Below are positions 15,160 through 47,087 of a stretch of 62,494 nt of DNA, one piece after another. The translations under genes and the position numbers were made by a program. Each line of letters begins with the position of its first letter. Position 1 is the stretch's first letter. This DNA comes from Anaerolineales bacterium (lineage in GTDB: Bacteria; Chloroflexota; Anaerolineae; Anaerolineales; UBA6663), in contig JADLEU010000245.1 in NCBI GenBank assembly GCA_020845955.1, forward strand, positions 1-62,494, in the 5' to 3' direction. The notes below the pieces were generated by a model. The model worked only from the letters and a program-made list of their open reading frames with translations, was not told where the DNA came from and made no database searches.

Positions 15160-16203
15160 CTAGGAAGCATTGTGTGTCCAAGAATCGGCAACCTCTCTTC
15201 GCGAGAATCGATACTGTGATCCGCTAAGGCTGAAGTCATATTCAAGGCCAGTTGGTCCATGTCTGTTCTTTTCAATCGAAATCCGTACACTCCTCCGGCC
15301 ATTTTCATGGATATGCACCTTCCAATTTAGTATGATCGCCACGTCGGGCTCGTACTGGACTGTCGTCGGCCCCCACAGATCTTCGAAACGCACGTGCTGC
15401 CGGCGTAGTGCGACCTCGTCGGCTGCAGCTACGGCCATCACCGGCACTCCGAGCTTCATCGCAATACTCTTTAGCCCGCGCATGACCAAGTCAATCCTTT
15501 GAAGGTCCGTTAATTCAGCACCCCCTACCCTGGGCGCAAGTGGTACTCGCTGGGCGTAGTCCACAATCAGCATCACGCGCGCAAAGCCCAGTTGCTGAGC
15601 CATGCGCACATATTCGTGCAGCACTGGCAGCGTCGTCTCCAGGCCATCGCCAGGCACGAGCCACAGCCGCCAGAGGTATTCGCGGAGGCGATACCAGGCC
15701 CGATCCACACCCGGCACGTTGGCCAGTAGCCAGTCCAGGTCCAGCCGCTGGCGCGCCGCAGGCTCCGGATTGGCGTCGTAGTATGCCAGCACGGCCTTTT
15801 CGATGGCGGCTCGCGTTACCCCCTGGGGAACTGGGCTGTCGGGATCGTCCACCGACTCGAGGCATAGCAGACGGTGCAACAGGGTCTCCGGTCCGTGCTC
15901 GTAACACACGACGATAGGCAGCACGTCGCCGGCGGCGGCCAGGTTGCGCGCCACTTGCAGCATGAAGATGGTCTTGCCCACATTCTGCATACCACCCACC
16001 AGGCACAAGTCCTCGGCGCGCAGGCCGCCGCCCAGGCACTCGTCGAGTTGTGGAAAGCCTAACGGCGCCGGGCGGTAGTTCTCCAGGTTGCCTGAGCGAA
16101 GGCGCTGGTTGAAGGCCCGCACCGTCTCCCACAGGTTTTGGGGCCGGAAGGCTTCGGTGTTCGGCAAACGGATGTTGGATGGGATTTCCGGCATCAGATC
16201 CAC
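15160..16203 (-). CDS. DnaB-type RecA-fold helicase/ATPase
   Basis: This 347-residue protein matches the C-terminal ATPase domain of replicative DnaB helicases. It has an entry segment (PLGFPQLDECLGGGLRAED), Walker A GGMQNVGKT at about 68-76 and Walker B VMLIVDYAQ at about 210-218. The final part (PDVAIILNW, IEKNRHGPTG) matches the DnaB motif carrying the arginine finger region. The N-terminal DnaB domain is absent. As the last gene of the 32-kb run it probably works with the operon's own primase at 21-22 kb, for element replication or conjugative second-strand synthesis. It overlaps the prepilin peptidase gene by 10 bp. Confidence 0.85.
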   Translation of the reverse strand: MDLMPEIPSNIRLPNTEAFRPQNLWETVRAFNQRLRSGNLENYRPAPLGFPQLDECLGGGLRAEDLCLVGGMQNVGKTIFMLQVARNLAAAGDVLPIVVCYEHGPETLLHRLLCLESVDDPDSPVPQGVTRAAIEKAVLAYYDANPEPAARQRLDLDWLLANVPGVDRAWYRLREYLWRLWLVPGDGLETTLPVLHEYVRMAQQLGFARVMLIVDYAQRVPLAPRVGGAELTDLQRIDLVMRGLKSIAMKLGVPVMAVAAADEVALRRQHVRFEDLWGPTTVQYEPDVAIILNWKVHIHENGRRSVRISIEKNRHGPTGLEYDFSLSGSQYRFSRREVADSWTHNAS

Positions 16204-16736
16204 CCCGGCCAGACGAGCCAGATGTACAGGACAGCGCCCAGGCTAAATGCAAACGTGATAGGCCGGCCGCGTTTTTGGTATGCAGCAGCGACCTCCGCCC
16301 GGTCGGGCCAGGCGCCTCGACTCGCCGTGACGAACAGAGCGGCGAGGCGACGCAGTCCCGCTCGCCCATCCCACACGATCAAGGCCAAGAGGGAGCCGAG
16401 CAGCACGGCGATCATCATCGCGTAGACGAACCGAGCATCAGGAAACAGCGCAACCAGTGCAATCAGCAACTTGGTGTCGCCACCGCCAAACGCCCGTATC
16501 CACCACAGCGCCAGGCAAATCGCCGAAGTAAGCGTCGCGAGACCCACCTGCTCCCAACTCACCTGGCTCAGAGCAAGCCGCGCCACGAGCACCAGCCACC
16601 CAGCGATCACGGCCGGTCGCATCACAGCATTCGGTATGCGTTTGTTGCGCAGGTCGTAGGCGGCCAGCGACACCAGCAGGACCGATAGGGCCAGCCGCGT
16701 GCCACAACTGAACATGTCTGGAGTCATCGGGGTCAA
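16194..16736 (-). CDS. tadV: Prepilin peptidase (TadV/CpaA type, A24)
   Basis: This 180-residue integral membrane aspartic protease matures Flp-type pilins and TadE-like pseudopilins. Both catalytic aspartates are visible: AAYDLRNKRIPN (about D28) and GGGDTKLL (about D87). It has five or six hydrophobic segments and lacks the cytoplasmic methylase domain of PilD, as expected for Tad peptidases. It is encoded far from the rest of the Tad genes but in the same polycistronic run. Confidence 0.9.
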   Translation of the reverse strand: MTPMTPDMFSCGTRLALSVLLVSLAAYDLRNKRIPNAVMRPAVIAGWLVLVARLALSQVSWEQVGLATLTSAICLALWWIRAFGGGDTKLLIALVALFPDARFVYAMMIAVLLGSLLALIVWDGRAGLRRLAALFVTASRGAWPDRAEVAAAYQKRGRPITFAFSLGAVLYIWLVWPGWI

Positions 16737-16739
16737 TCC

Positions 16740-17480
16740 TCACTTGGCGTCCCGGTCTGGAGGTCGGATGATCAGACCGCTATTTGCCACCGTCTCTATC
16801 ACGTCTTGTCCTTCGGTCTGCCTCAGCTTGCGCCTCAGGCGGTATGCCACATTCAGCAATCCCCTGGTGTCTTCGCCCACAATCGTGGGCTGAACCATCC
16901 CCCATCCAACTTCCATCAATTCCACGTAAGTGACGAGCTGCCCAGGCGTGCGCAGCAAGCGCTCCAGGATGCGGCGCTCAACATCGCCGAAGGTGTAGCG
17001 CCGGCCACGCTGTAGCGCCTGCGCTCGCGCCAGGTCGATCACCAGGTCACCGTAATAGAATAGCTTCCGCATTCGTTCCGGCGCCAGATTGCCGGCTACC
17101 GTCCGCCGCAGGTGGGCGCGCACCCGCGCGATAAGCTGCTCGCGGGATATCGGCTTAGCAAGGTAGTTGTCTGCGCCAAGATTCAGCCCGCGCACCACAC
17201 GGGCATCACCGGTCTGGCCGGTTAGGATGACGATGCGCACTGGGCTGCGGGCGCGCAGCGCCGCCAGCACCTCGAAGCCATCCATATCGCCCATGAGCAA
17301 CAGGTCCAGGATCACCAGCTCGGGTGCAAACTCGGTAAAGGCCGCCAGCGCTTCGGGGCCACTGCGCGCGGCTCGAGTACGATAGCCGGCCTCATCCAAC
17401 ACCTGCCGGTAGAATACGAGAAGGGCCGACTCATCCTCAACGATCAGAATGCGCTGACCGGACAGCGGCCTCTCAGCCAT
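16740..17480 (-). CDS. Response regulator, receiver plus winged-helix (OmpR-like)
   Basis: This 246-residue protein has a receiver domain (RILIVEDESALL with acidic pocket; phosphorylation site in LVILDLLLMG at about D57; ILTGQ; AKP) followed by an OmpR/PhoB-like winged helix (FGDVERRILERLLRTPGQLV, then VGEDTRGLLNVAYRLRRKLR). Transcription factors of this type bind direct repeats about 11 bp apart. Boxes of that form occur ahead of parA and the Flp pilin gene, so it is the best candidate for their activator. It overlaps the receiver-only gene by 8 bp. Confidence 0.92.
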   Translation of the reverse strand: MAERPLSGQRILIVEDESALLVFYRQVLDEAGYRTRAARSGPEALAAFTEFAPELVILDLLLMGDMDGFEVLAALRARSPVRIVILTGQTGDARVVRGLNLGADNYLAKPISREQLIARVRAHLRRTVAGNLAPERMRKLFYYGDLVIDLARAQALQRGRRYTFGDVERRILERLLRTPGQLVTYVELMEVGWGMVQPTIVGEDTRGLLNVAYRLRRKLRQTEGQDVIETVANSGLIIRPPDRDAK

Positions 17481-17853
17481 GGGCCTCGTCCGCCAGGGCG
17501 CTGCGTACTGCCTCTATCAGGCGAGCCCGAGCCACCGGTTTGCGTAGAATGGCCCAGGCCGCCCGTCGCCGCGCTTCCATCTCGTCCGCGCTGTTCAAGC
17601 TGGCCGCGAACAGGATCACGCGCAGGAGTCTGCCACCGCACCGTGCGCGTAGTTCATCCCAGACCTGCCAGCCGTCGAGTGGGCCTGGCAGCGTCAGATC
17701 CAGGAGCACCACGCCCGGCCAACCGTCCTCTGCAAGATCGAGTGCCAGGGCACCACTTTCAGCCAGGCGAAACGGCAAGCCTTCGCGTTCCAGCAGCCGG
17801 CGCACGAATTCGCCTAGCGCGAATTCGTCTTCTACGATGAGTGCGTATGTCAT
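17473..17853 (-). CDS. Receiver-only response regulator
   Basis: The 126-residue protein is a single CheY-like domain: ALIVEDEFAL with the acidic pair, VVLLDLTLPG as phosphoacceptor site, LFAAS and ILRKP as switch residues. It has no output domain. It lies between a soluble histidine kinase and the DNA-binding regulator, overlapping both, so it probably acts as a phosphorelay intermediate or adaptor in the same pathway. Confidence 0.9.
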   Translation of the reverse strand: MTYALIVEDEFALGEFVRRLLEREGLPFRLAESGALALDLAEDGWPGVVLLDLTLPGPLDGWQVWDELRARCGGRLLRVILFAASLNSADEMEARRRAAWAILRKPVARARLIEAVRSALADEAHG

Positions 17854-18605
17854 GGCTCAACCTGCCTTTCGACCACTGGCATGGTGAGCACAAAGGCGTT
17901 TCCAAACTGGCCAGAACAGTTACCGCCCGACGCCAGATACAGGTCGCCCCCCATCTGTCGGGCGACCGCGCGGGCGACGAATAATCCCAACCCAATGCCG
18001 AGCCTGGGCCGGCCCAATGCCGGAGGCAACCTAGCAAAAGGCTCAAACATGGCCTCGCTGTATTCGGTGGGGATTCGCAGACCATCATCCTCCACGACAA
18101 ATACCACCTGCCGCGCCCCGGGCTCATGGTGGGCACACACCGTAAGCCCACCCAGATCGCCGCGATCAGGCCGGCAGCGCTCAGCGTTGCGCAGCAGCGT
18201 GAACACAATGTGTAACAAGTGCTCCCGGTCAGCATGCACCGTGGGAAGGTCTTCGGCATACTCAATGGCCACCAAACAATCCGGTAGACGCGCTTCGAAC
18301 GTACAGGCGGCCTCGTGCAGAAATGCCCCGACCTCCACCACTGTCGGAAAGAGCATAAGCGGCCCCTGCGCCAATTCGTGGCGCAAGGCAAGATCATCCA
18401 CGACGCCGGCCAGGTAGGCGGCCTCGCGCTTGATGAAGCTGATGTAGTGCTCGGCCAGCGCCGGCGGCAGGCCCGGCTCCAGCAGTTCGGCGAAGCCCTG
18501 GAGAGATTGCAGCGGAGTCCGCAACGCATGTGCGGCGGTCCGCACAAACAGGGCATGCTGTTCTCGCAGCTGGGCAAGATCTAGCGGCGGCGTAATGTCG
18601 GTCAT
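17850..18605 (-). CDS. Soluble sensor histidine kinase
   Basis: This 251-residue protein has an H-box AAHALRTPLQSLQGF at about residues 24-38 and a HATPase_c domain with VFVVEDDGLRI (N/G box region) and GRPRLGIGLGLFVARAV (G2 box). It has no membrane segment and almost no sensor domain, so the signal must come from a partner. It overlaps the receiver gene by 4 bp and touches the nuclease-like gene by one base (TAATG). Confidence 0.9.
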   Translation of the reverse strand: MTDITPPLDLAQLREQHALFVRTAAHALRTPLQSLQGFAELLEPGLPPALAEHYISFIKREAAYLAGVVDDLALRHELAQGPLMLFPTVVEVGAFLHEAACTFEARLPDCLVAIEYAEDLPTVHADREHLLHIVFTLLRNAERCRPDRGDLGGLTVCAHHEPGARQVVFVVEDDGLRIPTEYSEAMFEPFARLPPALGRPRLGIGLGLFVARAVARQMGGDLYLASGGNCSGQFGNAFVLTMPVVERQVEP

Positions 18606-19804
18606 TAGTCCACCATCTCGAGCACCTGGAGCACCGACGCAAGAATGGAGGACCCAGGCAGACCCTCCAACGCCTGCTCCAGAACAGCGACCGAAGCCCG
18701 CATCTGAGTTGCCAAGGCTGCGTCATTTGCCACGTCCTGGCGCAATCGCTGGAAGGCGTCGCGATGCGCTTCGGCCCAGCCCAGGAGCCCAGCATCCAGC
18801 AGGGGCAGAACCTCCCAGCCGGGTTGGCCCCAGCAGTGTTCCCGGTAGGCGCAGGCCCGGCAGCTCTCATATCCCGTTACCGCGCGAGGGATCACCACGT
18901 GATGTTGCATCCCGCGCGCGATCGCCGCCGCCAACGCCAGAAGATGGCCTGTGTTTGTTTCTCGAAACGCGAAGGCCTGGCCGGTGGGCCAATGCCGGAA
19001 TTTGACGTGGTCGACGCGCTGCCACGATAGGCCAGCGGACTCGGACTGGCTGGACGAGGGCTGCGCCAGCGCAGCCGCGATCACGCGCAAGTCACGGCCA
19101 GCAAGCCCCGCCCGCACCCAGGGCGCGGGCTCGAAGTCATGAACTTCCACGATCACAGCGCCGTCTTCAGACTCCGCCCGGACCATCAGATCCGCCTGGC
19201 CAATAAGTCGCATGCCGTTGTCCAGATCTGCCTCGAACGGGGTCACCCAGCCCAGCACGACAGCTGGCGCGGGCAAGTCGGGTGCATTTCGCTCAGCCAT
19301 GGCCATACAATCCGCAAAGGCATCACCCAAAGCGCTGCCTGGCCGATTGCTCTCGTCGGGCGCGATCAGGCCATGCGTTCGGGCAAACTCGTCCAGCGAG
19401 CGGACCAGGTTTGTCAAGCCGGCCGAATGCATCCGCATTCGGTATTCGTTGGTCATCTCGGGCACAGCGTAGCGGCCACCATCGGGCCGCTGCACGCGGC
19501 CGGTCGAAAACAGGTCGAGAATCTTCGCCCGGCCCGCAGCATACTGCGCCAGTTCACGCGCCAGAGCTGGTTCCCCCCACCCCTCACACCAATCATGCCA
19601 GACCAGGTTCACAGCTGTCGCGAGGCTGTCGGCGTGGCCCTGGTAGTAAAACTCCAACCCGGTGCGGATCGCCGTCGGAAGGAGCGAGGCAATCGTCCGT
19701 GGCCGGGGCACACCGGCTCGGCGTTCCCAGAACCACTCCAATGGGCAGCGGGCATACGTCCTCAGGTCGTCCAAGCGAATGTCCATTCTTTGCCGTTCCG
19801 TCAT
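18605..19804 (-). CDS. Fe-S PD-(D/E)XK nuclease-like protein (AddB/Cas4 C-terminal type)
   Basis: This 399-residue protein has the cysteine pattern of iron-sulfur nucleases: one Cys near the N-terminus (YARCPLEWFWE) and three near the C-terminus (CRACAYREHC). Between them is an active-site-like region: IGQADLMVRAE followed by VIVEVHDFEPA. The usual catalytic Lys after E-x is His here, so activity may be altered or lost. Its position among primase, helicase and kinases suggests DNA-end processing for the element. It overlaps the kinase gene upstream by 4 bp (ATGA). Confidence 0.7.
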   Translation of the reverse strand: MTERQRMDIRLDDLRTYARCPLEWFWERRAGVPRPRTIASLLPTAIRTGLEFYYQGHADSLATAVNLVWHDWCEGWGEPALARELAQYAAGRAKILDLFSTGRVQRPDGGRYAVPEMTNEYRMRMHSAGLTNLVRSLDEFARTHGLIAPDESNRPGSALGDAFADCMAMAERNAPDLPAPAVVLGWVTPFEADLDNGMRLIGQADLMVRAESEDGAVIVEVHDFEPAPWVRAGLAGRDLRVIAAALAQPSSSQSESAGLSWQRVDHVKFRHWPTGQAFAFRETNTGHLLALAAAIARGMQHHVVIPRAVTGYESCRACAYREHCWGQPGWEVLPLLDAGLLGWAEAHRDAFQRLRQDVANDAALATQMRASVAVLEQALEGLPGSSILASVLQVLEMVD

Positions 19805-21135
19805 GTCGCCGGTTGAGAAACAGCCAAGCGGCCTTCTGCCAACGCCGCGCCAGACAGCTCAGGTCTACCTGCCACAGCGGGTAGGGCAAAGTAGAAGCAC
19901 GTCTCCAGGCCGGGATCGCTCGTGGCCCAGATCTCCCCACCCATTGCCTCGACCAATCGCCGGCTCGACCATAGGCCCAGGCCGTGCCCCTTGACCTTGC
20001 CCGTGCTGTCGGTGGAAAACCCAAACTCGAACAATTGGGGCATCGCTTCATCCGAAATTCCGATGCCATTGTCGCCAACCTCGAACAGAACACGGTCGCC
20101 TTCGGCCCAAACTCGGAGCCAGATGTGCAAATCAGACCGCTGGGCGTTGTGGTTGACTGAGTTCGCGATCAAGTTGTCGAGAATGCGTAACACGGCCAGG
20201 CGCTCCCCCCACACGGCTGGTATATTCGGCGCGACTTCCAACTTGAAGATCACTGCGCGTTCGCGACGCCGGCGGGCGAGCATAGCAGCTGCGAGTTGCG
20301 TAAGTTCCTCGACCGGAAGCCGTTCCAACTCCAGCTTGCGATTGGGATCACCAACCTCCTCGACGAGTGGCTGGCTCAAACTCAATTGCTCCATGGCCTG
20401 CTTGACAAGATCCGCCGCTTCGCCATCCCACTCATCGCTGGCCGTCGCCAAATCCAGGAGTGAGTGAGCAGCGGTCAGTTTGTTGGACAGATCGTGCGCC
20501 GCCGTCCGAGTCATCCGATCGTAGTGGTTCAGGCTGGCGCTCAACGCTTGAATATCGGCTGCTCGGGCTTCCAATTCGGCATATTCGCCCATCACCAGCT
20601 CGGCATACCGCTGAATTGCTTGAACTACCGGCAATTGGCGCTCGGCCGCTCGAGCTGACGTCCACCCCAACACCAGAAGGGCGTGCTTTCCAAGGTGAGT
20701 CGCCACTACCCCACCATCGCTGCCTGCCGCCAGCGCCTGCCAACGGGCTGCCAGTTGCATGCCGGTCAAAAGTACAGGTTTGGACGAGCTGCCGAGCAGG
20801 CGAGTTAGGGCATCCTCAGCGGGAAGAGCGGCAAGCCAATCCAGCCGCTCCACATTCACGGCATGCGCCAGTTCATAAACTGACCGTTCCGCACGGGCCA
20901 GGTGCAGTGTGCCGCTGTAAGCACCAAGCGCTTGGACACTGCACTCAAGGATGATGCCAAGCGATTGATCACGGTCGCGGCGCTGCACCGTTGCCGCCAT
21001 AACTTCACCAATGGCATCGTTCCAGGATTTGTCGCGCCTTAGCATCCACTGGCCTGCCCGCCAAACCCCCCACAGGACGCAGGTCGCGAAGAGTCCCGCC
21101 ACCAACACTATTCCGCCGCTTTCCGTCCCGGTCAC
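19801..21135 (-). CDS. Membrane-anchored sensor histidine kinase
   Basis: This 444-residue protein starts at GTG 21135, chosen because ggaggag lies 3 bp upstream and the primase stop is just before. One N-terminal membrane helix (GIVLVAGLFATCVLWGVW) is followed by a GAF-like sensor segment, then an H-box (TAAHDLSNKLTAAHSLLDLA) and a HATPase_c domain with VGDNGIGISDEAM and GHGLGLWSSRRLVEAMGG. It is the likely membrane input for the signalling genes downstream in the same run. The ligand is unknown. Confidence 0.88.
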   Translation of the reverse strand: MTGTESGGIVLVAGLFATCVLWGVWRAGQWMLRRDKSWNDAIGEVMAATVQRRDRDQSLGIILECSVQALGAYSGTLHLARAERSVYELAHAVNVERLDWLAALPAEDALTRLLGSSSKPVLLTGMQLAARWQALAAGSDGGVVATHLGKHALLVLGWTSARAAERQLPVVQAIQRYAELVMGEYAELEARAADIQALSASLNHYDRMTRTAAHDLSNKLTAAHSLLDLATASDEWDGEAADLVKQAMEQLSLSQPLVEEVGDPNRKLELERLPVEELTQLAAAMLARRRRERAVIFKLEVAPNIPAVWGERLAVLRILDNLIANSVNHNAQRSDLHIWLRVWAEGDRVLFEVGDNGIGISDEAMPQLFEFGFSTDSTGKVKGHGLGLWSSRRLVEAMGGEIWATSDPGLETCFYFALPAVAGRPELSGAALAEGRLAVSQPAT

Positions 21136-21151
21136 TGCTCCTCCATGCCCG

Positions 21152-22369
21152 CTACAGTTGGCTCGCCAGCGACTGACGGGGCTGGACCGAGTGCCGCCCA
21201 TAGACTGGCGCAAGACTTTCTCCGGGGTAGCCCTTCGGCGGCTGCGGCTCGTATCCCAGCGCCTTCATCAACACCAGGAAGGTTTTCTCGCCGCCATCGC
21301 GGATACTCAGTTCGTTGAGGTCCTTCACGCCGTCAGGAAGTTCGGCCAGTGATCCCCGCCCAATCAACTCATGCCACCTTACCGCCGCCTCCAGGCCCGC
21401 ACCGCCATCGTTGTGAGGCACGATCACCAGTGGCCGCTTTAGCCGGGCCAGGAGCGCCGCATGTTCGGACTTCATCCGCGTGCCGATGTTGGCCAGGGCA
21501 TCGAAACCCCACTGCCGCGCCGTAATTGCATCTGGCGGGCTTTCCACCAGCAGCACCGGCCGGTCGCTCTCTCGCCGGTCGAGGCGGGCATAGCCATAGA
21601 GCGGTTTGGACATCTCCTTCAAGCTCAGGTACTTGGGCGCCTTCGCGCTCAGATCAGGAGCGAAGGCTCGCCCAATCAAGTGGAGCACCCGCCCGTTGCG
21701 GTCGCGTTCGACGAACACCACTCGGCCGGCCATGAACTCGCGGTGGCGTCGCTCGGCATCCAGTAAGTTGATCTCAGCTGCCGCGCTGATCCTCAGTCCA
21801 CAGGCCAGCAGCGCCGGCACGAGCAGGTCACCAGTGGCATAGCCCACGGCTTCATGTCCAATGGTCGCATCACTGAAACCGCGGCGCTGCAAGTATTCGT
21901 AAGGTGTACCCGGTCCCTGGCCCATAGCCAGGAGTGTGGTGTGATAGAGCCGGGCCGCAGTGTGAAGCAGCATCTGGACGCGAGGCCCCAACTCTACTGG
22001 CCGCCAGGATTGCGGAGCGTGCCAGGCCGGCGGCAACGGCTGGCGCAGCGGCGGCAGGTGGTTGCCGTCCAGGTCGGCTAGAACATCCTTGAACATCGCC
22101 TTATCGCGGCTGTTCCAGGCGCGGCCAAATCGGGCGTGGCCAACCAGGTCAATCACGTCACCGCCCAAGCCGCACGAGGCGGCGTAGCAGGTCCAGGTCT
22201 GCGTCGGCAGATGAACGGCGAAGCTGGGATGCCGGTCGTCATGGAAAGGGCAGCGGCCGACCAAGTTACTGCCACTGTGGCGCAGATCTGGGATGTACCG
22301 CGCAGCCGCCTCTTGCAGCGAATGGCGGGCTTTGATCTCCTCAACGCTAGCGCACGAGCCTGAATCCAT
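21152..22369 (-). CDS. DNA primase, CHC2 zinc finger plus TOPRIM
   Basis: This 405-residue DnaG-like primase has a zinc finger recognisable in NLVGRCPFHDDRHPSF and WTCYAASCGLGGDVIDLV (residues about 33-75). A TOPRIM domain follows, with LLVESPPDAITARQWG (catalytic Glu) and LVIVPHNDGGAG. It is shorter than chromosomal DnaG (about 600) and lacks a clear helicase-binding C-terminus, typical of plasmid or ICE primases. The start at 22369 was preferred over an in-frame ATG at 22399 that would overlap the upstream gene more. Confidence 0.9.
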   Translation of the reverse strand: MDSGSCASVEEIKARHSLQEAAARYIPDLRHSGSNLVGRCPFHDDRHPSFAVHLPTQTWTCYAASCGLGGDVIDLVGHARFGRAWNSRDKAMFKDVLADLDGNHLPPLRQPLPPAWHAPQSWRPVELGPRVQMLLHTAARLYHTTLLAMGQGPGTPYEYLQRRGFSDATIGHEAVGYATGDLLVPALLACGLRISAAAEINLLDAERRHREFMAGRVVFVERDRNGRVLHLIGRAFAPDLSAKAPKYLSLKEMSKPLYGYARLDRRESDRPVLLVESPPDAITARQWGFDALANIGTRMKSEHAALLARLKRPLVIVPHNDGGAGLEAAVRWHELIGRGSLAELPDGVKDLNELSIRDGGEKTFLVLMKALGYEPQPPKGYPGESLAPVYGRHSVQPRQSLASQL

Positions 22370-22376
22370 GGCTTCT

Positions 22377-35169: not shown

Positions 35170-35230
35170 GGCGATATTCTCCTGGCGGCAGCCAGGCTCT
35201 GGAGCCTGGCTGCCGCCCACCACATACGTC

Positions 35231-36521: not shown

Positions 36522-37572
36522 CTCTTCCTTCCGGCGCAAACGGGGATTGAGGTGGAACGGTCAGCCCAGCTAGCGATGTAGGGGCATGCCGGGACGGTGT
36601 GGTGGGAGCATTGCTGGCCGGCCCCGTGGGCGTCATCGGGGGTCGGGCCGTCGGCTTGAGCCCGCCAGAGAAGTCGGTCTCTCGGCGCAGCGCTTGGCTG
36701 AAAGACCGATGTGCCAGGATGAACGCGACTGTAGCCATGCCCCACCCCACCAGCAGGAGCACCTGGCCGAGACCCGTGCTGTAGATCGCCGTGAATTCTG
36801 GGGACATGAGCCGCAGGACCAAAACTGCGACGAATGGGGCCGCGCATACAATCCACAGCTCCCGGATCGGGCCTTTCATCTTGGTGCGCGCTCGGCGGAT
36901 GGTCCGCACCCGTTCTTCCAGCGACTCCTGGATCAATGGGAGCGCTTCAATGAGCGGCGTGCGGCGCGTCTGTTGAAGTAGCAGCAGTTCCAGAATATTA
37001 TTGAGGAGCTGGCTGCCGCGCCGCAGGCTGACCACCTTGAATACCTGCTCGGCCGGCGCGTGGGCACCCAGTTGCGCGGCGATATAGGCCCAGTCATCTC
37101 GGCACAGCAGCGGTCCGAACCGCGCCACGTGCTCCGCGGCGACCGGTAGGCTGTTGCCCAGCCGTGCCCCGGCAACCAGGCGCGCCAAGACTTGGGGCAA
37201 CTCCTCTTCATACGTTTCCAATACCTGATCGGCCTTCTGTGCCAGGTAGATCCAATAGCCCAGGCCTCCCAGCACCAGGCCCAGCACGCCAGCCAGCCAC
37301 GCACCCGAGACAAGATAGGCAGCCAAACCTGCCAGCATGGCCAGCATCACGAGCATGGGTAGAAATGCGGCTACCGAGAGGTTGATCCGGGCCAGGTCGA
37401 GCCGCCGCTGAAGGCTCACATGCCAGGAGATCTCCTCCGTGCCAGCGCCAAACAGCTTCTCGGTTTCAGACAGGTTGATGGGCCGTTGGGTCAGAAGAGC
37501 AACTGTCAGCGCGAACACTCCGGCCGCCACCAGTGCCGCTAACAGCACGTTCAGGGGGTTGATCAAGCTCAT
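36508..37572 (-). CDS. tadB: TadB-like type II secretion F-family protein
   Basis: This 354-residue protein has a TadB architecture: a first helix (VLLAALVAAGVFALTVALLT), a hydrophobic pair (LPMLVMLAMLAGLAAYLVSG and GVLGLVLGGLGYWIYL), then the F-domain with PLIQESLEERVRTIRRARTK, and two last helices. The extra C-terminal 50 residues are Pro/Thr-rich and unusual for TadB. It overlaps tadA by 4 bp. Confidence 0.92.
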   Translation of the reverse strand: MSLINPLNVLLAALVAAGVFALTVALLTQRPINLSETEKLFGAGTEEISWHVSLQRRLDLARINLSVAAFLPMLVMLAMLAGLAAYLVSGAWLAGVLGLVLGGLGYWIYLAQKADQVLETYEEELPQVLARLVAGARLGNSLPVAAEHVARFGPLLCRDDWAYIAAQLGAHAPAEQVFKVVSLRRGSQLLNNILELLLLQQTRRTPLIEALPLIQESLEERVRTIRRARTKMKGPIRELWIVCAAPFVAVLVLRLMSPEFTAIYSTGLGQVLLLVGWGMATVAFILAHRSFSQALRRETDFSGGLKPTARPPMTPTGPASNAPTTPSRHAPTSLAGLTVPPQSPFAPEGRDAHA

Positions 37573-39044: not shown

Positions 39045-40447
39045 CGCGCATTTCCTCGGCGCCCAAACGAAAACCGCCCTTTGTGGCCGTTCTGGCCGGA
39101 ACGCGCCTTGATGATGGCCCCCATTGGCGGGAAGATCTCTTCCGTGATGGCCAGCAGGCCGTTAAGCGTGGCTTCTGTCTCCGGCTTGTTCTTGCCCATA
39201 TGCTGGAGCACGAACGGTCGTCCTTCGTTGATGGCAGCAATCACCGCGCGGCTGTGATCCTCAGGTACAGTGGCGAAGATCGGCATGCCCATGAAGTCAG
39301 CCGCATCCTTGAGGTCAATTCTGTCCGCCGGATCGAAACGGTTGATGACCAGCTTGAACTTATCGGGCCGCAGGTCGGCTTCCGATACCAGGGCCTGAAG
39401 CGTTGAGCGGTTGTGAAACAGGCTGGTGCGATCCGAGGTACAGATGAAAATGACCACGTCAGCCGCGTTCAATACGCCGAAGTGCGGGCCCATCTGAGTG
39501 CTGGAGCCAAGGTCTACGATGACGAAGTCGTAGAGCTCGCGTGCCAGGCGCAGAAGGTCGCCCATGAAGTGCTGACCTTGCTGCCCGTGCAGCTCTGGTG
39601 TGCTGGCTTGCTGGATCTTGGTAATGCCAAAGAGCACATCCAGCCGGCTCTCCACGACGCGCGTGCGGGAATCCAGATGCCGATCCGCCCCCACTACCCG
39701 ACGGCGCAGCATCTTGCCAGTCAACTGGGCCTCGCTGGCATAGTCACTCGCGAGGTGCAGCAGGGTATTCTGATCTGGTTGCATGTTCAAATGCAGCGCG
39801 GCGCGGCCACAGTTCATGTCCGCATCAACCAGCAGCACTTTCTTGCCAGCCACCTGTGAGAGCAGGCAAGCAACGTTGACAGCCAACGTAGTCTTGCCAT
39901 CACCGCCTTTGGTGGACCAAAAGGCAATCACGCCGGTGCGATAGGCATAGCCGGTGGTTCCAACCGCCTCCACGACCTGGCGCGGCACGCCGGCAGCCGC
40001 GACCGGGGCATTCCATTGCTCACGCGCCTGATCGAACAACGTTCGTGCCTGCCGGTCGAATTGCCCAACGATGGCAGGGGTGACAGGCGTGGTGTAGAAA
40101 GCGGTAGCGCCACCAGCTGTCATTTCCGCGCCCCAATTGCCTGTCGGCGGCACAAGGCCCACGACCGCAATCGGAAACTCCGGCCAGTTCGCCAGCTGCG
40201 AGACGACTTCCGGTGAGTAGCCACGGACTTCGGGTGACAGCAGCACCAACTGTGGCCGGTAAGCCCGTATGTCTTCGATCAGATCCGCGGCATCGCGCGT
40301 GGTTGCCAGAATGGATAGCTGGTGATCAGGAGCCGCGCCCAGGGACAAGAACGGTTGAAAGATGTTGGGCGGCGCGGCGATGACGACACCCAAGGCCGTG
40401 GCCTCGGCAACCTCTTCGGTTCCGCGTTTCAGCAGGTTTTTGAGCAT
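39041..40447 (-). CDS. tadZ: TadZ/CpaE-like localisation ATPase
   Basis: This 468-residue protein starts at ATG 40447 after cgaggctgac. It has an N-terminal atypical receiver-like domain (about 15-135; PQLVLLSPEVRG) and a ParA/MinD-type ATPase with deviant Walker A TKGGDGKTT and FVIVDLGSSTQMGP. In Tad systems it localises the machinery to a pole. It is clearly separate from the ParA at 46.2-47.1 kb. Confidence 0.92.
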   Translation of the reverse strand: MLKNLLKRGTEEVAEATALGVVIAAPPNIFQPFLSLGAAPDHQLSILATTRDAADLIEDIRAYRPQLVLLSPEVRGYSPEVVSQLANWPEFPIAVVGLVPPTGNWGAEMTAGGATAFYTTPVTPAIVGQFDRQARTLFDQAREQWNAPVAAAGVPRQVVEAVGTTGYAYRTGVIAFWSTKGGDGKTTLAVNVACLLSQVAGKKVLLVDADMNCGRAALHLNMQPDQNTLLHLASDYASEAQLTGKMLRRRVVGADRHLDSRTRVVESRLDVLFGITKIQQASTPELHGQQGQHFMGDLLRLARELYDFVIVDLGSSTQMGPHFGVLNAADVVIFICTSDRTSLFHNRSTLQALVSEADLRPDKFKLVINRFDPADRIDLKDAADFMGMPIFATVPEDHSRAVIAAINEGRPFVLQHMGKNKPETEATLNGLLAITEEIFPPMGAIIKARSGQNGHKGRFSFGRRGNAR

Positions 40448-40460
40448 GTCAGCCTCGTGA

Positions 40461-41513
40461 TTAGGGTGTTGGCGTCGGGGTCGGGAACGGGAAAGCGGTT
40501 GCCAGCAAACTGGTGGGCTGGGCGGCCTGGGTGGCCGCGTTACGCGTCGCTTCGACGGCGAATGCGCCCGGCCCATAGACATCTGCCGGCAGACCAGCCG
40601 ACAGCGCGGCTTCGCGTTCCATGCGAACGAGGGCGACGAGGTCGTTCCACGTCATGCCAAGTGACGGGGTGTTCGCTTCCACAGAATGGTCCGCGATTTG
40701 GGCAGAGAGTAGCGCGACGCGGACCGTGCCGTTGTCAATTGCGAACTCCAGCAACTCCTGCGCCTCACGCGGGATGGCGACCACAAGCGCGATGACCTTA
40801 CCCTTGACCAAGACGATCTGGGCCTCGGCACCCGGCGCGCTCTGCACGGCGGAGGTGCGCTCCTCCCGAATGACCGCCATCACTTGAGCGCTGCGCACAA
40901 CCGTCTTCGCTACCGGCAGCACCAGGAGTGGCTCGGGCGTAGGAGTCGGGCTTACGGTGGCCGCGACTTGCAGTTCGGGAATCGTCTGGTTTGGTGCGCC
41001 AAATCCGGAGGAAAATGGCTCTTCGGTTGGCGCTGTGGACAGCATACCGCCAAAGGCCGTGGTCGACCCCACGCCAAAGTTGAGATCCACGTAATCGCCC
41101 TCCACGATGGCATCCGGAGCGGTACCAACACTGACCGGCACGACCATCGCGATTAGGTTGGGATCTGACAGGGCCAGCGCCAGCCGATTGGCCGAGGCCG
41201 GGTTGCCGGAGACGCTGATGGCGGCCTTGTGCACCGGTTGAAAGGCATGGATCGGTTCGACCACGACACCACCCACATACTGAGTCACCTCGCCTTCCTG
41301 CACCAAGCCGGCAATGACCTTGGCGTCCATGTGAACGCTGTCAATGGCGATCATATCGCCCGTCAAGGTCGTCCCAGCCGGGATGTCAACTACGGCGACC
41401 GCGACAGGAACGGGCGCTGGATTCACCAGTTGACCAACGAACAGCACACTCAGGAATCCCCCAACCATCAGGATGATAGCCAACACAATGACCGCTGAAT
41501 TTCGTCTCGTCAT
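40461..41513 (-). CDS. cpaB: CpaB/RcpC-like pilus assembly protein (SAF domain)
   Basis: This 350-residue protein has one N-terminal membrane helix (AVIVLAIILMVGGFLSVLFVG), then a SAF domain (VAVVDIPAGTTLTGDMI) and an RcpC-like domain. The C-terminus ends in a Pro/Thr repeat (PFPTPTPTP) typical of Chloroflexota exported proteins. No secretin gene is nearby, although CpaB usually accompanies one in diderms. Confidence 0.9.
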   Translation of the reverse strand: MTRRNSAVIVLAIILMVGGFLSVLFVGQLVNPAPVPVAVAVVDIPAGTTLTGDMIAIDSVHMDAKVIAGLVQEGEVTQYVGGVVVEPIHAFQPVHKAAISVSGNPASANRLALALSDPNLIAMVVPVSVGTAPDAIVEGDYVDLNFGVGSTTAFGGMLSTAPTEEPFSSGFGAPNQTIPELQVAATVSPTPTPEPLLVLPVAKTVVRSAQVMAVIREERTSAVQSAPGAEAQIVLVKGKVIALVVAIPREAQELLEFAIDNGTVRVALLSAQIADHSVEANTPSLGMTWNDLVALVRMEREAALSAGLPADVYGPGAFAVEATRNAATQAAQPTSLLATAFPFPTPTPTP

Positions 41514-41549: not shown

Positions 41550-41948
41550 TTACCCCAACTGAGCTAGAAGCTCGGAAGCTTCTCCAATCAAATGCCACAG
41601 AATGCGCCGAAGGGCCGGTGTATGCGGCGCGGTGGCCGCCATCTCCGGAACGTCCGACAACTCACGGATGGCCATGACGCCGGCCTGGATTTGCACAAGA
41701 GCCGGTCCGATCTGGCCCGAGCGCGACAGTGCCTCGGCCTGCGCGACCGCCGTTGGACCAGAGAGTCGGTCTGGGTCGGCCGCGAGGAGCGCAGCGGCGC
41801 TTCTGGCCACTGCCGGCGACACCGGTGGCAAAGCCGGCAGAGCCACATTGCGACTTGCGACATGTGCCAAGAGGCGGGCCTGCTGCTCCGAGCTGAGACC
41901 TGCGACGGCAACGGCCTTCACGTAATCATCCGGGAGCGTCGTCATCAT
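41550..41948 (-). CDS. Small hypothetical protein in the Tad operon
   Basis: This 132-residue mostly helical soluble protein (SSEQQARLLAHVASRNVALP, then MAIRELSDVPEMAATAP, RILWHLIGEASELLAQLG) overlaps the stop of the upstream secreted-protein gene by four bases (ATGA). It is followed by cpaB. No family was recognised. Confidence 0.7.
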   Translation of the reverse strand: MMTTLPDDYVKAVAVAGLSSEQQARLLAHVASRNVALPALPPVSPAVARSAAALLAADPDRLSGPTAVAQAEALSRSGQIGPALVQIQAGVMAIRELSDVPEMAATAPHTPALRRILWHLIGEASELLAQLG

Positions 41949-43084
41949 CGCAGCACCGTCTGAGCTTCGATGACAGGCACAGGGATGTAGCCTTGAGCTG
42001 CATTGCAGTAGATTCCCGTAGCGTTCGCAGGGCTCTGGCGGTTGTCCCACGCCCGATAGCTGATATAGGTAGGCGCAACGCGAACTTCGACCTGGCGGTG
42101 ACCGGCATACACGTAGTCGTGGTCAGCGCTCACCGTGAACTCGTCCCATTCCGCCAGGAGGTATAGATCCCAGCGCGTCTGCAGGGCCAGCTTGAAGGCC
42201 GGAAGCGTGTTGGTTCCATTCAGAGCTGGCCCCAAGAATGAGATGTTTGGCAGACTTCCGGGAAGCGGGTAACTGGATCGCACGTAGGTTGTCCTGGCCC
42301 AGTCAGCAAGACCGCCGTTCAGAACGTCGTAAAAACCGGCCGTTGTCCACGTCAACTCAGTGGCCGCAGTCCCCATTCTGAACACGAGGCGGGCACGGAC
42401 ATTGTTGACACTTGGATAGGGATAGGTGTCGCCAGTCAGCAGGGCGCGCGTGTCGAATGCCGGCTGGCCGAGGCTATCTGTCACTGCAGCGCCGTAGCGT
42501 TCGTGCAGGAACAGCCCTTCCGTAGCCCAAGCGCTGGACGCAGGCAGGCGGTAACTGCCGGGCTCACCAAAGGCGATGCCAGAAAGCTGCGCGGGCGGGA
42601 TGATATGCGTCACCCGATACTCCACGGGCATATTGACCAAAGCGCGAGGGAACGGGCGACGGCTGACGTTCAGGCACCCAACCGAGCCGCCCAGTTGCAA
42701 AGGTTCGCCGCCCGCCCGCAATGGCAAGGCACACTCGACCGACCCCCTCAAGGGGAGATTCGGTCCCGCCGGCCAGGCCATACAATTACTCGGCGACGGG
42801 ATTGAGTCCAGCGTCTCGCAGACCGAGCCATCGCCCGTCACATCAATCTTGCCCGCGGGACACTCCCGCCTGATCAGCACGCATCGCGTCATGAATGGGT
42901 CCCAAAATTCGCCGGGCAGACAATCCGGGGTGGGAGTGGCAGTCGGACCTGCCTGTGCGTTGACCGGCTGCACCCCAGAGGACCAGGCAAGCAGTCCCAG
43001 CCACAACAGCGCGACGATCCCAAGTCCAACACGGGCCTGACCCAACCTTCCGCTCTGACCAGCCAAAAGCAGTCGTTTGCTCAC
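41945..43084 (-). CDS. Secreted protein of the Tad operon, unknown function
   Basis: This 379-residue protein has an N-terminal signal segment (VGLGIVALLWLGLLAWSSG) and a mature start QAGPTATPTPDC. The rest looks like an extracellular beta-rich protein with several Cys (CLPGEFWDP, CVLIRRECPAG, CETLDS, CMAWPAG). It may be a pilus-associated or surface protein. It overlaps the TadG-like gene by 4 bp. Confidence 0.7.
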   Translation of the reverse strand: MSKRLLLAGQSGRLGQARVGLGIVALLWLGLLAWSSGVQPVNAQAGPTATPTPDCLPGEFWDPFMTRCVLIRRECPAGKIDVTGDGSVCETLDSIPSPSNCMAWPAGPNLPLRGSVECALPLRAGGEPLQLGGSVGCLNVSRRPFPRALVNMPVEYRVTHIIPPAQLSGIAFGEPGSYRLPASSAWATEGLFLHERYGAAVTDSLGQPAFDTRALLTGDTYPYPSVNNVRARLVFRMGTAATELTWTTAGFYDVLNGGLADWARTTYVRSSYPLPGSLPNISFLGPALNGTNTLPAFKLALQTRWDLYLLAEWDEFTVSADHDYVYAGHRQVEVRVAPTYISYRAWDNRQSPANATGIYCNAAQGYIPVPVIEAQTVLR

Positions 43085-43536
43085 TGCCCCTCCTCCGTAA
43101 TCCCATACTTAAGCTCGGCCCTGGCTGACAGGTCTAGCTGCACCTGGTTGACACCGAAGATGCGCATGAAGATCGTAGGTGAGGTGACGGTGCCATAGAC
43201 GAACACCTGTGTGCCGGCAACGCTAATACCCGTTACGGCGACATGACCCCGGCCATTCTCCTGGGCGTACCGCGTCGCCGCGGCCACAGCATCAGCGGGG
43301 TTGAGCTGGATCGTGTTGTCATCCACGAAGGCAAACCGATCGAGTTGGGCTGCGGCAGCGAGGGCCGCACTGTCCATGGCAACTTGGCCGCGGCGGTACT
43401 GCACCATTGCCAACCCTCCGTCAATCACCAGACCGACCACGCCCAGCAGTACTGGCACGAGCAAGGCGAATAGAACAGCGATTTGCCCTCGATTGTTTGT
43501 TGGTAAGGCAGGCCGCGATCTCATCAGCGTAACCAT
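43081..43536 (-). CDS. tadG: TadG-like (Tad-domain) pseudopilin
   Basis: This 151-residue protein has the TadG/Tad-like N-terminus (NRGQIAVLFALLVPVLLGVV), a membrane helix followed by DGGLAMVQYRRGQVAMDSAA, which is the hallmark of the Tad family, and a short beta-rich exported part. It is much shorter than typical TadG, which carries a von Willebrand A domain. Start at ATG 43536 or 43524. Confidence 0.85.
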   Translation of the reverse strand: MVTLMRSRPALPTNNRGQIAVLFALLVPVLLGVVGLVIDGGLAMVQYRRGQVAMDSAALAAAAQLDRFAFVDDNTIQLNPADAVAAATRYAQENGRGHVAVTGISVAGTQVFVYGTVTSPTIFMRIFGVNQVQLDLSARAELKYGITEEGQ

Positions 43537-43554: not shown

Positions 43555-44517
43555 TTAGTCCACAAACTTGGGCAAATAGTTGCAGTAGTAACCACCGTCG
43601 TCATCGGCCACATACCACTGTCCACTGTTGCTGTCCCAAGTCATGAGTGCCGTGCCGGCGAACCGCGACATGGTGTCCGTCTTCACTACTTCGCCCGACT
43701 CAACAGCGATCAACTCCTGACGAACTGCGGCGGTAGACCAAGGCAGGGCCAGCTCGATGTCGCCCACAGAGACAAACAGGTGGTATGGCTCTGCCCATTG
43801 CAGCGGTTCGGTGAAGGTGAGCCGCACGTACTGCCCCCCCTCACCGAGGGCACTCACCCGGCTTGTGATCTCGTCGGCCAGGCAACTCTCAGGCGCGGGC
43901 AATCGGCCAGCGGAGTTCATGTGCTGGGCCAGAATCTCGGGGAAGTCATTCCCGGGCGGCCCAGACTGAAGTGAGATCGCGTCCAGGTAGGCCAGGTAGC
44001 GCTGGCGCGCGACCTCAAGATCGGCCGAAAGCGCAAATAAGTAGTCTTCGGCCTCGAGCCAGTTGCCGCCTTGCCACACACGGGCTGCCTGCCCTGGCAG
44101 ATCGTTGCCCAGGCAATTCGCGCTCACGAGGTACGGCTGCTGCGGCGCGAGCGGCCACGGTAAGGGCGTCGAAGTCGCCGGTGGGACGAGGACGCATTGC
44201 GTCGCCGCAACCTGAGCGTCAAATTGCTTGGAGCCTTCAGGCACGCCGCTGGCAGTCACTGCCACGCGGATAGCCTCGACCGTCATCGCGGCCAAACGAG
44301 TCGGGTCAAGCGTTGGGGTCGGGCTCGGCGTTGCGGTCGATTCAGCGCTGGCGGTTGCTGTTGGGACCGTGGCCGTTGTGCTGGCTGAAGCTTCAATAGA
44401 GGCCACAGCTGTGGTTGTCGGCGCCGGTAATTGGGTGGGCGTGGCCGAGGGGACCGTGCATGCCGCCGGCAGAATGAGCAGCACGCTTACCAGAACACCT
44501 TGAAGAGTTGGTCGCAT
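43555..44517 (-). CDS. Lipoprotein with Thr/Pro/Ala-rich stalk
   Basis: This 320-residue protein has a lipobox LPAAC with Cys20, then about 60 residues of Thr/Ala/Pro/Ser low complexity ending in SPTPTLDPTRLAAMTVEAI, and a C-terminal globular domain ending DSNSGQWYVADDDGGYYC. It should be a membrane-tethered surface protein. No family was recognised. It lies 18 bp from the TadG-like gene. Confidence 0.75.
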   Translation of the reverse strand: MRPTLQGVLVSVLLILPAACTVPSATPTQLPAPTTTAVASIEASASTTATVPTATASAESTATPSPTPTLDPTRLAAMTVEAIRVAVTASGVPEGSKQFDAQVAATQCVLVPPATSTPLPWPLAPQQPYLVSANCLGNDLPGQAARVWQGGNWLEAEDYLFALSADLEVARQRYLAYLDAISLQSGPPGNDFPEILAQHMNSAGRLPAPESCLADEITSRVSALGEGGQYVRLTFTEPLQWAEPYHLFVSVGDIELALPWSTAAVRQELIAVESGEVVKTDTMSRFAGTALMTWDSNSGQWYVADDDGGYYCNYLPKFVD

Positions 44518-44526
44518 TGCGTTTGC

Positions 44527-45771
44527 CTATTCCTTCTCAAGTTGCAGCGCCATACGCTTGGTCGCCACGAGCCGCTTCATGAGGCCGACGAGCATCGGCG
44601 CGCACTCGCGTGACTGGTTGCCTTCCCGGACCATGCCCTCAAGTTCGAGACACAGGTCTAGCATTGCGACGACCCGGCGCACCAGCGGATCGTGCGCGGA
44701 GAGTTCGGCGCCTTCCACCGCCTTGACCGGCTCCCAGTTCGACAGCACCAGGAGGCAAGCCGCTTTCACGATTTTACGTGGCTGGGCATGATCGAGGGCC
44801 AGATCCGCCACGTCACCGGCTTGTTCGACGGCCACCTCAGGACAGATCTCCTTGACGAACGACATGATGTCGTCACGGGTCATCTCTGGCTGAGTAGTCG
44901 GGCCAGCGTCGGGCCCCTTGTTGAGTTGCTTGGCGTCGCTCGCAACTGAGACACCGTCGGGCACGGGTGGTCGGGCCGCTTCCACAGGCCATCGCACAAG
45001 ATTGAGCCTTGCAGCTGCGTCATCGAGGGAAATATCGTGCTTCTTGCTCTCAGCCAGCAACTTGGCGACCTGAGGTTCAGACAACTCGCAAGTGTCAGCC
45101 AGTTCGAGCGCCCGTTGCTGTTGTTCCTGTGGCGCCTTCAGGACGGCAAACGCGACGTAGGCGGGAATGCGATTCTCTTCAACCGCTGCCAGGACGGCGG
45201 GCGCCTTGGTCAGACGACGCAGGCTCCAGATATAGGAGCGGGCCATACCGACCCGCCGCGCGATGTCGTCGGGCTCGAGTTTGTGATTATTCTCCAGGCG
45301 CTGCACGGCATGCGCCAACTCGATCGGCGTCAGGTTCTTGCGGACGTTGGCCGTGAGCGAGATCAGATCGCAATCCAGTGTGCCTGCGCGTACGATTACC
45401 GCCTTGACGGTTGGATGGCCAATGTGTCGCAGGGCGGCGATCCGCCGATGGCCATCAAGGGGCACGTAATGGCCCACACTGTCCGAAGGCCCCTCCACAA
45501 GGAGCACCGGCAAGCGTTGCCCATCAGACTTGAGGCTCTCCACCAGGGCCTGGTCTTCGGCATCGCCTTCAGGATCGAAGCCCGCCCGAACCTGCATCGG
45601 GCTTTGGCCGGCGATCTCTCCAAGCGGCACTTCCCGGAATTCTTCGCCATCGCCGATCACCGGCGCAGGCGCACCGACCGGGGCTGATCGCCGAGCCCGC
45701 GCGGGTAGCTGGTTGTAACGGCGCGGCATGCGGAGCTTCGATTCGTCGCCCAGGTAGAGCTCAGTGGTCAT
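44527..45771 (-). CDS. parB: ParB-type partition/nucleoid occlusion protein
   Basis: This 414-residue protein starts MTTELYLGDESKLRM at ATG 45771; longer in-frame starts run through the upstream gene. It has a ParB/Srx N-terminal nuclease-like domain (GHYVPLDGHRRIAALRHIGH), then a KorB-type helix-turn-helix (DDIARRVGMARSYIWSLRRL). The C-terminal third is acidic and helical and probably oligomerises. With the ParA-like protein it should give faithful element inheritance. Confidence 0.92.
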   Translation of the reverse strand: MTTELYLGDESKLRMPRRYNQLPARARRSAPVGAPAPVIGDGEEFREVPLGEIAGQSPMQVRAGFDPEGDAEDQALVESLKSDGQRLPVLLVEGPSDSVGHYVPLDGHRRIAALRHIGHPTVKAVIVRAGTLDCDLISLTANVRKNLTPIELAHAVQRLENNHKLEPDDIARRVGMARSYIWSLRRLTKAPAVLAAVEENRIPAYVAFAVLKAPQEQQQRALELADTCELSEPQVAKLLAESKKHDISLDDAAARLNLVRWPVEAARPPVPDGVSVASDAKQLNKGPDAGPTTQPEMTRDDIMSFVKEICPEVAVEQAGDVADLALDHAQPRKIVKAACLLVLSNWEPVKAVEGAELSAHDPLVRRVVAMLDLCLELEGMVREGNQSRECAPMLVGLMKRLVATKRMALQLEKE

Positions 45772-46102
45772 CGCGGCATCCCCGAGGTCGATTGGCGATT
45801 TGCTGAGAGCTGAACCAAGCCAGGCTGACCGACAGCCAGCCCGCGCACAGCGCTGCCAAGCTGATGTAGGCGAACCATGCATCCATGGCATTCAGGACAG
45901 CCAGCGTCACCAGACTCACACCACCCACCGCCCGCACGGGCCAAGCCACTCGCAATGTAAGCAGAATGGGGAGCAACACCAACCAGGGGAAGGCTGCATC
46001 GATGGCTGCCCAGGCTGTCTGCTGACCGCGGACGCCCATCATCGAAGAAATCGGGGGCAAGAAGCCCAACAGCAGGAGGGTCAACAGTGCCAACGGGCGC
46101 AT
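45761..46102 (-). CDS. Small membrane protein between parA and parB
   Basis: This 113-residue protein has three or four membrane helices (LALLTLLLLGFLPPISSMM, FPWLVLLPILLTLRVAW, GVSLVTLAVLNAMDAWFAYI, ALCAGWLSVSLAWF). No family was recognised. It overlaps the parB start by 11 bp, so it is likely co-translated with it. A membrane protein inside a par locus is unusual and might tether partition to the envelope. Confidence 0.65.
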   Translation of the reverse strand: MRPLALLTLLLLGFLPPISSMMGVRGQQTAWAAIDAAFPWLVLLPILLTLRVAWPVRAVGGVSLVTLAVLNAMDAWFAYISLAALCAGWLSVSLAWFSSQQIANRPRGCRDDH

Positions 46103-46184
46103 GGTTATAGGTCGGGGGCACTACCAGGGTAATTGGTCTCGTCCACTTTGTTACATATTTCCTTGAGTGCGCGCATATTATCAC

Positions 46185-47087
46185 TTAAGGGACATCAGAG
46201 TCAAGGGGTTTTGCCTGCGGACCCTCTTCGGATATTGGAGTGGCCATAACATCGTCCACCTCGACCGACTCGGCGACCTCCACTGGCTTCTCATCTGCCA
46301 CGCCGCTATCAATTTCTCGCGCCACCTGCTCGAAGCTGGCCGCCACCGCGGATTTGCGCCGCGACAGCACCACGAAACGCTTCAGTACGTCGTGCTGGCC
46401 CGCCAGTGTCTTGAGCAGCTCGGAGTGCCGAATGGGGGATAGGCACGGGAGCGCATACTGATCCAGCTTGCTTTGGATGCGCTCCGAAACGCCCTGACGC
46501 CCTGCCCCATTGGGCAAGAAGCCAAGGAACTCCGGCTTGTCGTCGCCGCGCACCTCGCGCGCCATCAGGATCAGGTGCATGGCCGGCGTAGCGGCGTATA
46601 GGTCATAGACTGACAGCCCAGTCGGAATGATGACCTCGTCGCACGCTAGCAATGCGAGGTGGGCGATGAACGGGTGCCCGCCGGCGCAATCGAGCAGGAT
46701 GTAGTCGAATTGGGCTGGATCGAGGCGTTCAAGCTCCAGCTTGAGCGCGATGGGGCTGAGGCGCCCAGAATTGTCCAGGCGGTTCGCGTCAGCGATGCCG
46801 GCCGCGCCTTCGAGGCCATGCAGGTCGGCGGCGCCAGGGGAGAGCCAAACGTTGGGGATCGCCGTGGGGATGATGACGTCCGCCAAGGGGCGCAGGCCCA
46901 GGAGCGCAGCGGCGACGGAGTTCTCCAGGTCTTCAAGCACGCCAAACGTGCGCGAGGCGCAGGCGTTGCTGTCGAGGTCTATGGCTAGGACGCGCCGCCC
47001 CATGTCACCCAAGGCTGCGGCGATGTTGACGCAGGAAGTGGTCTTTCCACAACCGCCCTTTTGCGAGAAGAATGCGATCTGTCGCAT
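46185..47087 (-). CDS. parA: ParA-type partition ATPase
   Basis: This 300-residue protein starts MRQIAFFSQKGG at ATG 47087 after gaaggagccact. Deviant Walker A KGGCGKTT is at residues 10-17, Walker A' is VLAIDLDSNACAS, and Walker B is FDYILLDCAGG. It is the first gene of the 32-kb run, with the 19-bp box 44 bp upstream, and it pairs with the ParB gene downstream. Confidence 0.93.
   Translation of the reverse strand: MRQIAFFSQKGGCGKTTSCVNIAAALGDMGRRVLAIDLDSNACASRTFGVLEDLENSVAAALLGLRPLADVIIPTAIPNVWLSPGAADLHGLEGAAGIADANRLDNSGRLSPIALKLELERLDPAQFDYILLDCAGGHPFIAHLALLACDEVIIPTGLSVYDLYAATPAMHLILMAREVRGDDKPEFLGFLPNGAGRQGVSERIQSKLDQYALPCLSPIRHSELLKTLAGQHDVLKRFVVLSRRKSAVAASFEQVAREIDSGVADEKPVEVAESVEVDDVMATPISEEGPQAKPLDSDVP

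Follow-up and report, generated by a model that had tools for sequence, protein, structure and literature searches.

Tad/Flp pilus genes linked to a gram-positive-type type IV secretion system in a probable conjugative element of Anaerolineales

Gene content of the 32-kb run

The DNA analysed here, referred to as the window, is an entire contig of 62,494 nucleotides (C245; JADLEU010000245.1) from an Anaerolineales bacterium whose 6.06-Mb genome lies in 431 contigs, the nearest named relative found being the Anaerolineales metagenome-assembled genome JADZEK. Between positions 15160 and 47129, around 30 minus-strand genes form one run of ~32 kb, in which a Tad/Flp pilus set and a type IV secretion system (T4SS) are joined with partition, primase/helicase and signalling genes (Table 1). 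Most of these genes overlap or are separated by 3–36 bp, with larger gaps between ParA and ParB (293 bp) and between TadC and Flp (154 bp). Pfam and NCBIfam scans back most of the named genes, and together with five syntenic copies they bear out the preliminary description of this DNA, which had seen a single run with this content ending at 47087, the better start for ParA (MRQIAFF...).

The Tad set is a complete monoderm-type system with a canonical Flp pilin, comprising the TadA ATPase, TadB and TadC, Flp with a G/x4-EY motif, TadE, a prepilin peptidase, TadZ and CpaB, and the closest solved chain to TadA is CpaF. There was no secretin domain among the Pfam matches of the gene run; as the secretin RcpA/CpaC belongs to diderm systems only, its lack fits a monoderm-type Tad system and is not disqualifying. 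The gene at 33768–34277, previously listed as TadG-like, encodes a protein with four transmembrane (TM) segments and not TadG. The AlphaFold model of the 379-amino-acid (aa) protein in the Tad block was uninformative, with a predicted local distance difference test score (pLDDT) of 31.

The T4SS is of the gram-positive type (MPF_FA/FATA-like), as evidenced through its VirB4, VirD4 coupling protein, PrgI/VirB3-like protein and M23 cell-wall hydrolase. No VirB8/TcpC-like protein had a Pfam match in the gene run, though divergent relatives could escape such a scan. The earlier VirB2-like and VirB6-like genes are candidates by topology, neither having a family match. The relaxase candidate has two winged helices and a PD-(D/E)XK-like C-terminus with invariant D498, E520-x-D522 and K534, with which the secondary structure of the model is consistent; the matches listed from Foldseek and VIA-align 2 were mainly winged-helix (MarR-like), covered only the winged helices and included no nuclease. 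The Replic_Relax Pfam family has been equated with MobC (PMC5357655), and MOBC has been linked to PD-(D/E)XK nucleases via TraX of enterococcal pAD1 (PMC12857230). TraX also combines a winged helix with a PD-(D/E)XK nuclease, a likeness drawn from family assignment and motif and not from direct alignment, but it belongs to a different transfer system. A separate PD-(D/E)XK nuclease gene (18605–19804) had been omitted from the earlier gene list.

Recurrent linkage and co-divergence

Five syntenic copies of the run were identified, three in one genome (the window, C398 and C333) and two in the relative G001 (C159 and C193), of which C193 ends at a contig edge ahead of the prepilin peptidase and DnaB genes. 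Occurrence on five contigs of two genomes rules out an assembly artefact, a contig chimera or chance. Among the copies, most core genes of the T4SS and Tad sets share ~70–88% identity, whilst ParB (56–67%), the relaxase candidate (63–75%) and the prepilin peptidase (51–63%) diverge more, which would fit a need for distinct recognition in coexisting elements.

A VirB4 profile searched over 400 Chloroflexota genomes, with no more than two candidates from each genome scored, gave matches in 37, and the neighbourhoods of the best matches were annotated with profiles grown from the window. Tad genes lie upstream of VirB4 on the same strand in 13 distant loci from 10 other Chloroflexota genomes (G079, G086, G137, G216, G145, G121, two in G434, G271, three in G406, and G072:C24), with TadA ~4 to 38 kb from VirB4, and a fourteenth linked locus, in G075, is divided over two contigs. 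By chance ~0.3 such pairings would be expected over these loci against the 13 seen, the former being a hand estimate from 1–7 T2SSE genes per 2–8 Mb genome, the same strand and a 40-kb span. The co-occurrence of tadA and virB4, for which the preliminary description proposed a search across Chloroflexota, is a recurrent same-strand linkage; instead of separate conserved contexts in all relatives, the linkage recurs and TadA co-diverges with VirB4.

Pairwise distances of VirB4 follow those of the linked TadA (Spearman rho 0.87, Mantel p 0.0003) across 13 genomes, a sample in which some sequences are fragmentary and one pair is joined across contigs (G075). In the same set, rho was 0.61 for VirB4 against the coupling protein and −0.03 against each genome's top-scoring other TadA/CpaF. 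A partial test concurs, and the VirB4–TadA correlation rises to 0.90–0.95 once G001, G434/G271 or the window lineage is dropped. In a TadA tree, most of the linked proteins belong to long-branched groups away from ordinary TadA/CpaF, but the linked proteins do not make up one clade. Each of the five copies has an intact Flp motif followed by a mature part of 41–48 aa, as do ten of the other linked loci that were scanned; the same motif scan found no Flp pilin in G086 or in the Chlorohelix and Actinomycetota loci considered below.

Probable integration and flanking genes

The conserved element is larger than first described, as it also takes in a synthase block at 2007–4438 and a divergent block at 52716–59915. 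The squalene/phytoene synthase gene of the former (2007–2915, minus strand), kept with two neighbours in four of the five copies, is a puzzling cargo for a transfer element.

Tyrosine integrases adjoin tRNA genes in two copies, and the family therefore looks integrative and conjugative, with the element probably integrative rather than a plasmid. In C398 the integrase, which comes after the synthase block, directly adjoins tRNA-Leu(TAA), and a second tRNA-Leu(TAA) with a degenerate integrase 9.3 kb on makes this a tandem integration site (junctions L022:12276-13589 and L036:2392-2850); in C159 the integrase is immediately downstream of tRNA-Val(CAC), ~23 kb past the synthase block. The tandem tRNA-Leu copies have 27 bp in common, but as each of the three copies in the genome is a complete tRNA, this repeat does not fix the boundaries of the element. 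The window contig was rejected as a circular molecule, there being no overlap between its ends.

Several other genes accompany the backbone. Tn7-like TnsA, TnsB, TnsC/TniB and TniQ genes (5524–10846, plus strand) sit in a ~10-kb stretch parting two backbone blocks that other copies have close together, and a distant relative (28–35%) is found at another place in copy C193. By these genes, a DDE transposase (DDE_Tnp_1_4; 11643–13133) shares 46–50% identity with part of C122, another contig of this genome. A protein of 1420 aa (47815–52077, plus strand), which combines RCC1 repeats with domains of the clostripain (C11) protease and choice-of-anchor Q types, is not matched in any of the four sister copies. 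At the contig end lies a group II intron reverse transcriptase/maturase with an HNH domain (60536–62362, plus strand), and it is this intron that probably broke the assembly.

Table 1. Features of the gene run and its conserved flanks, with supporting evidence; percentages are identities in the syntenic copies.
Feature	Position	Strand	Evidence
Conserved flank: squalene/phytoene synthase and two genes	2007–4438	-	4/5 copies; SQS_PSY 2.9e-60
DnaB-like ATPase	15160–16203	-	DnaB_C 5e-17
A24 prepilin peptidase	16194–16736	-	PF01478 5.5e-12
OmpR-type response regulator	16740–17480	-	Response_reg, Trans_reg_C
Receiver-only response regulator	17473–17853	-	Response_reg
Histidine kinase 2, soluble	17850–18605	-	HisKA, HATPase_c
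PD-(D/E)XK nuclease	18605–19804	-	PDDEXK_1 2.8e-7
Sensor histidine kinase 1	19801–21213	-	HATPase_c
DnaG-type primase	21152–22399	-	Zn_ribbon_DnaG, DNAG_N, Toprim
Replic_Relax (MOBC-type) relaxase candidate	22377–24248	-	PF13814 4e-6, above cut-off
VirD4-type coupling ATPase, two N-terminal TM	24187–26943	-	TrwB_AAD_bind 8e-8
M23 peptidoglycan hydrolase (VirB1-like role)	26925–27623	-	PF01551 7.6e-28
VirB4 ATPase	27630–30545	-	AAA_10, P-loop_TraG; NF045971 9e-47, under its cut-off; solved relative 4ag5
PrgI/VirB3-like	30550–31044	-	PF12666 1.8e-6
VirB6-like polytopic protein, 769 aa	31048–33357	-	Topology only, no family match; synteny
VirB2-like candidate	33323–33751	-	Signal peptide and two TM (topology only, no family match); 75–77%
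4-TM membrane protein	33768–34277	-	TM count; same frame in C398
TadE2	34287–34760	-	TadE 1.1e-8; motif EKG/QASVEL
TadE1 (start probably internal)	34741–35367	-	TadE 7.4e-4; prepilin motif EKG/LSSAEF
Flp major pilin, 61 aa, DDDG/LSATEYAILF (MLTEAKAQLKALWEDDDG/LSATEYAILFVV...)	35231–35416	-	E-Y motif; mature part ~43 aa
TadC	35571–36539	-	T2SSF 2.8e-9
TadB	36508–37572	-	Weak T2SSF; position; 79–82%
TadA/CpaF motor ATPase	37569–39044	-	PF00437 6e-27; TIGR03819 6e-56, under its cut-off
TadZ/CpaE-like ATPase	39041–40582	-	Pfam AAA_31, CpaE_hom_Actino
CpaB/RcpC	40461–41513	-	Pfam SAF
Small conserved protein	41550–41948	-	62–64%
Exported 379-aa protein in Tad block, function unassigned	41945–43084	-	68–74%
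TadE/TadG-type (Tad domain) protein, TadG N-terminal	43081–43536	-	Pfam PF13400 4.8e-9
Exported protein, 320 aa, function unassigned	43555–44517	-	52–59%, all copies; N-terminal TM
ParB	44527–45891	-	Pfam HTH_ParB, TIGR00180
ParA (probable start 47087)	46185–47129	-	Pfam AAA_31 1e-26; 65–76%
Divergent conserved block: UvrD helicase, DUF6908, DUF6094 methyltransferase, others	52716–59915	+	4/5 copies; Pfam

Known systems and the proposed role of the pilus

A similar arrangement has been described for a linear plasmid of Cutibacterium acnes, in which a tad locus lies beside VirB4-, FtsK- and TcpC-like genes and Flp/Tad pili are suspected, the link of these pili to conjugation being left open (PMC5696575). 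This is an Actinomycetota plasmid, likened here by description and not by sequence, and Chloroflexota-wide linkage, co-divergence or an integrative form were not reported in that study. Same-strand conjugation-type ATPases with CpaB-TadA-TadB/C-TadE-TadG genes also occur in Streptomyces CLI2509 and SN-593 pRVR1, Embleya NBC_00896 and Nocardioides pNOCA01; the first three clusters share a replication-relaxation protein with the window, and in pNOCA01 the Tad cluster is close to SCO6880-family genes. Unlike in the window, however, the T4SS genes of CLI2509, pRVR1 and Embleya come before the Tad genes, and the Actinomycetota plasmids have a large LysM or BTAD protein after TadG and no A24 peptidase/two-component tail in their annotated stretches. 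The complete, circular plasmid unnamed2 of Candidatus Chlorohelix allophototropha carries a PrgI-family gene followed by CpaB-TadA-TadB-TadC-TadE, as well as VirB4 and coupling ATPases, but its VirB4 is ~41 kb off on the opposite strand in an element rearranged by insertion sequences. The close fusion that had been regarded as unusual is therefore less so with regard to the Tad/T4SS pairing, whereas the signalling/DnaB/prepilin peptidase set as a block was seen only in the five-copy family.

T4SSs are also combined with type IV filaments in PAPI-1, where the pilus is essential, and in IncI (R64), where it aids in liquid (PMC12857230), but these are Gram-negative type IV pili from type II-like machinery and not of the Tad/Flp branch. 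In mycobacterial pRAW a VirB4/VirD4 core is likewise coupled to an unrelated surface system (PMC12857230), although the partner there is ESX, a type VII secretion system, without a pilus. Tad goes unmentioned in this 2025 T4SS review, and nothing was found on Tad together with conjugation in the literature on Chloroflexi, most subscription journals being outside the coverage.

On balance, these findings favor reading the gene run as the transfer region of a conjugative and probably integrative element, with the gram-positive-type T4SS and the Tad/Flp pilus inherited as one module and Flp making the mating contact. That Tad and T4SS form one unit is well supported, and the recurrent linkage and TadA/VirB4 co-divergence lend support to the original proposal of a conjugative element bearing both modules. 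The Flp pilus as the means of mating contact is plausible, but its use rather than a classical pilus, which had also been proposed, is not settled. In such an element, a Replic_Relax/MOBC-type PD-(D/E)XK relaxase would nick a putative origin of transfer (oriT), and the nicked DNA would be handled by the primase, DnaB-like ATPase and UvrD. VirD4 would hand it on to a channel built from VirB4 and the PrgI/VirB3-like and VirB6-like proteins, for which the M23 enzyme would open the cell wall. The dedicated prepilin peptidase would process Flp and TadE, and TadA/B/C/Z with CpaB would build a pilus that catches and holds recipients, in place of an F-type pilus or Gram-positive adhesins, whilst the two-component genes would turn the gene run on and ParAB would maintain the element.

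Several points weigh against a transfer element that uses its pilus in this way. Five evaluable distant VirB4 loci (G072:C17, G098, G280, G408 and G384) have no Tad genes in the 30–60 kb upstream, those of G072:C17 being 65 kb from VirB4, and Tad is therefore not obligatory for the VirB4 family. Apart from these five and the linked loci, the VirB4 neighbourhoods stop at contig edges. The window contig has neither integrase nor tRNA and may be a fragment, no oriT turned up, though no separate oriT search was made, and the VirB2-like and VirB6-like calls come from topology alone; because a VirB2-like candidate is present, a classical conjugative pilus is still possible. The co-divergence could be explained by co-transfer without functional coupling, and DNA transfer itself, the role of the pilus, regulation and relaxase activity are read from genes alone.

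A more far-reaching suggestion, offered tentatively, is that of a distinct class of conjugation machine in Chloroflexota and Actinomycetota, with the Tad motor and Flp pilus integral to the T4SS (TadA as VirB11, Flp replacing the conjugative pilus) and essential for transfer. Tad loci commonly function in adhesion, and these genes may instead be passengers that serve the host in surface attachment or biofilm formation and ride on a conjugative element with no part in its transfer. Cargo differs among related elements, however, yet the order, strand and place of the Tad genes beside VirB4 are kept across distant loci, and TadA tracks the divergence of VirB4 more tightly than the coupling protein does, which makes a passenger role rather doubtful, even though the authors of the C. 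acnes study call the link between Flp and conjugation unclear (PMC5696575).

It is unlikely that the Tad motor is part of the T4SS in one chimeric machine rather than two, with TadA as VirB11 and TadB/TadC and CpaB forming or driving part of the envelope channel. The run contains no other VirB11, TadA matches both VirB11 families and a solved VirB11 by profile, and the Tad and T4SS genes are contiguous, but gram-positive T4SSs are known to work without VirB11, and the retained Flp and TadE genes point to a real pilus. A Tad pilus for DNA uptake, by which element-bearing recipients would import DNA expelled by the T4SS in a transjugation-like manner, is very improbable: transformation of Micrococcus luteus is cited in a passage of PMC5696575 as requiring a tad locus, and Thermus transjugation is reported to link donation with uptake, but Pfam scans of the run gave neither a competence-type DNA receptor nor a ComEC-like channel. 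Accidental adjacency was rejected as scarcely credible, since five-copy synteny, the linkage conserved over 13 loci and co-divergence contradict it, even though Tad loci are widespread among Chloroflexota and missing from some related VirB4 loci.

Little is known of how monoderms that have no F-type pilus form mating pairs, and some cells that lack classical mating pili may hold their conjugation partners by Tad pili. Phylum-wide linkage and co-divergence, together with similar clusters in a second phylum, give a testable hypothesis on the question left open for C. acnes (PMC5696575). If this is true, Tad would join the surface systems that team with T4SSs, such as type IV pili in PAPI-1/IncI and ESX in pRAW, and the Tad–T4SS pairing would flag mobile elements overlooked by typing, such as the Chlorohelix plasmid, the Embleya plasmid and the two from Streptomyces, all of which MOB-suite labels non-mobilizable.

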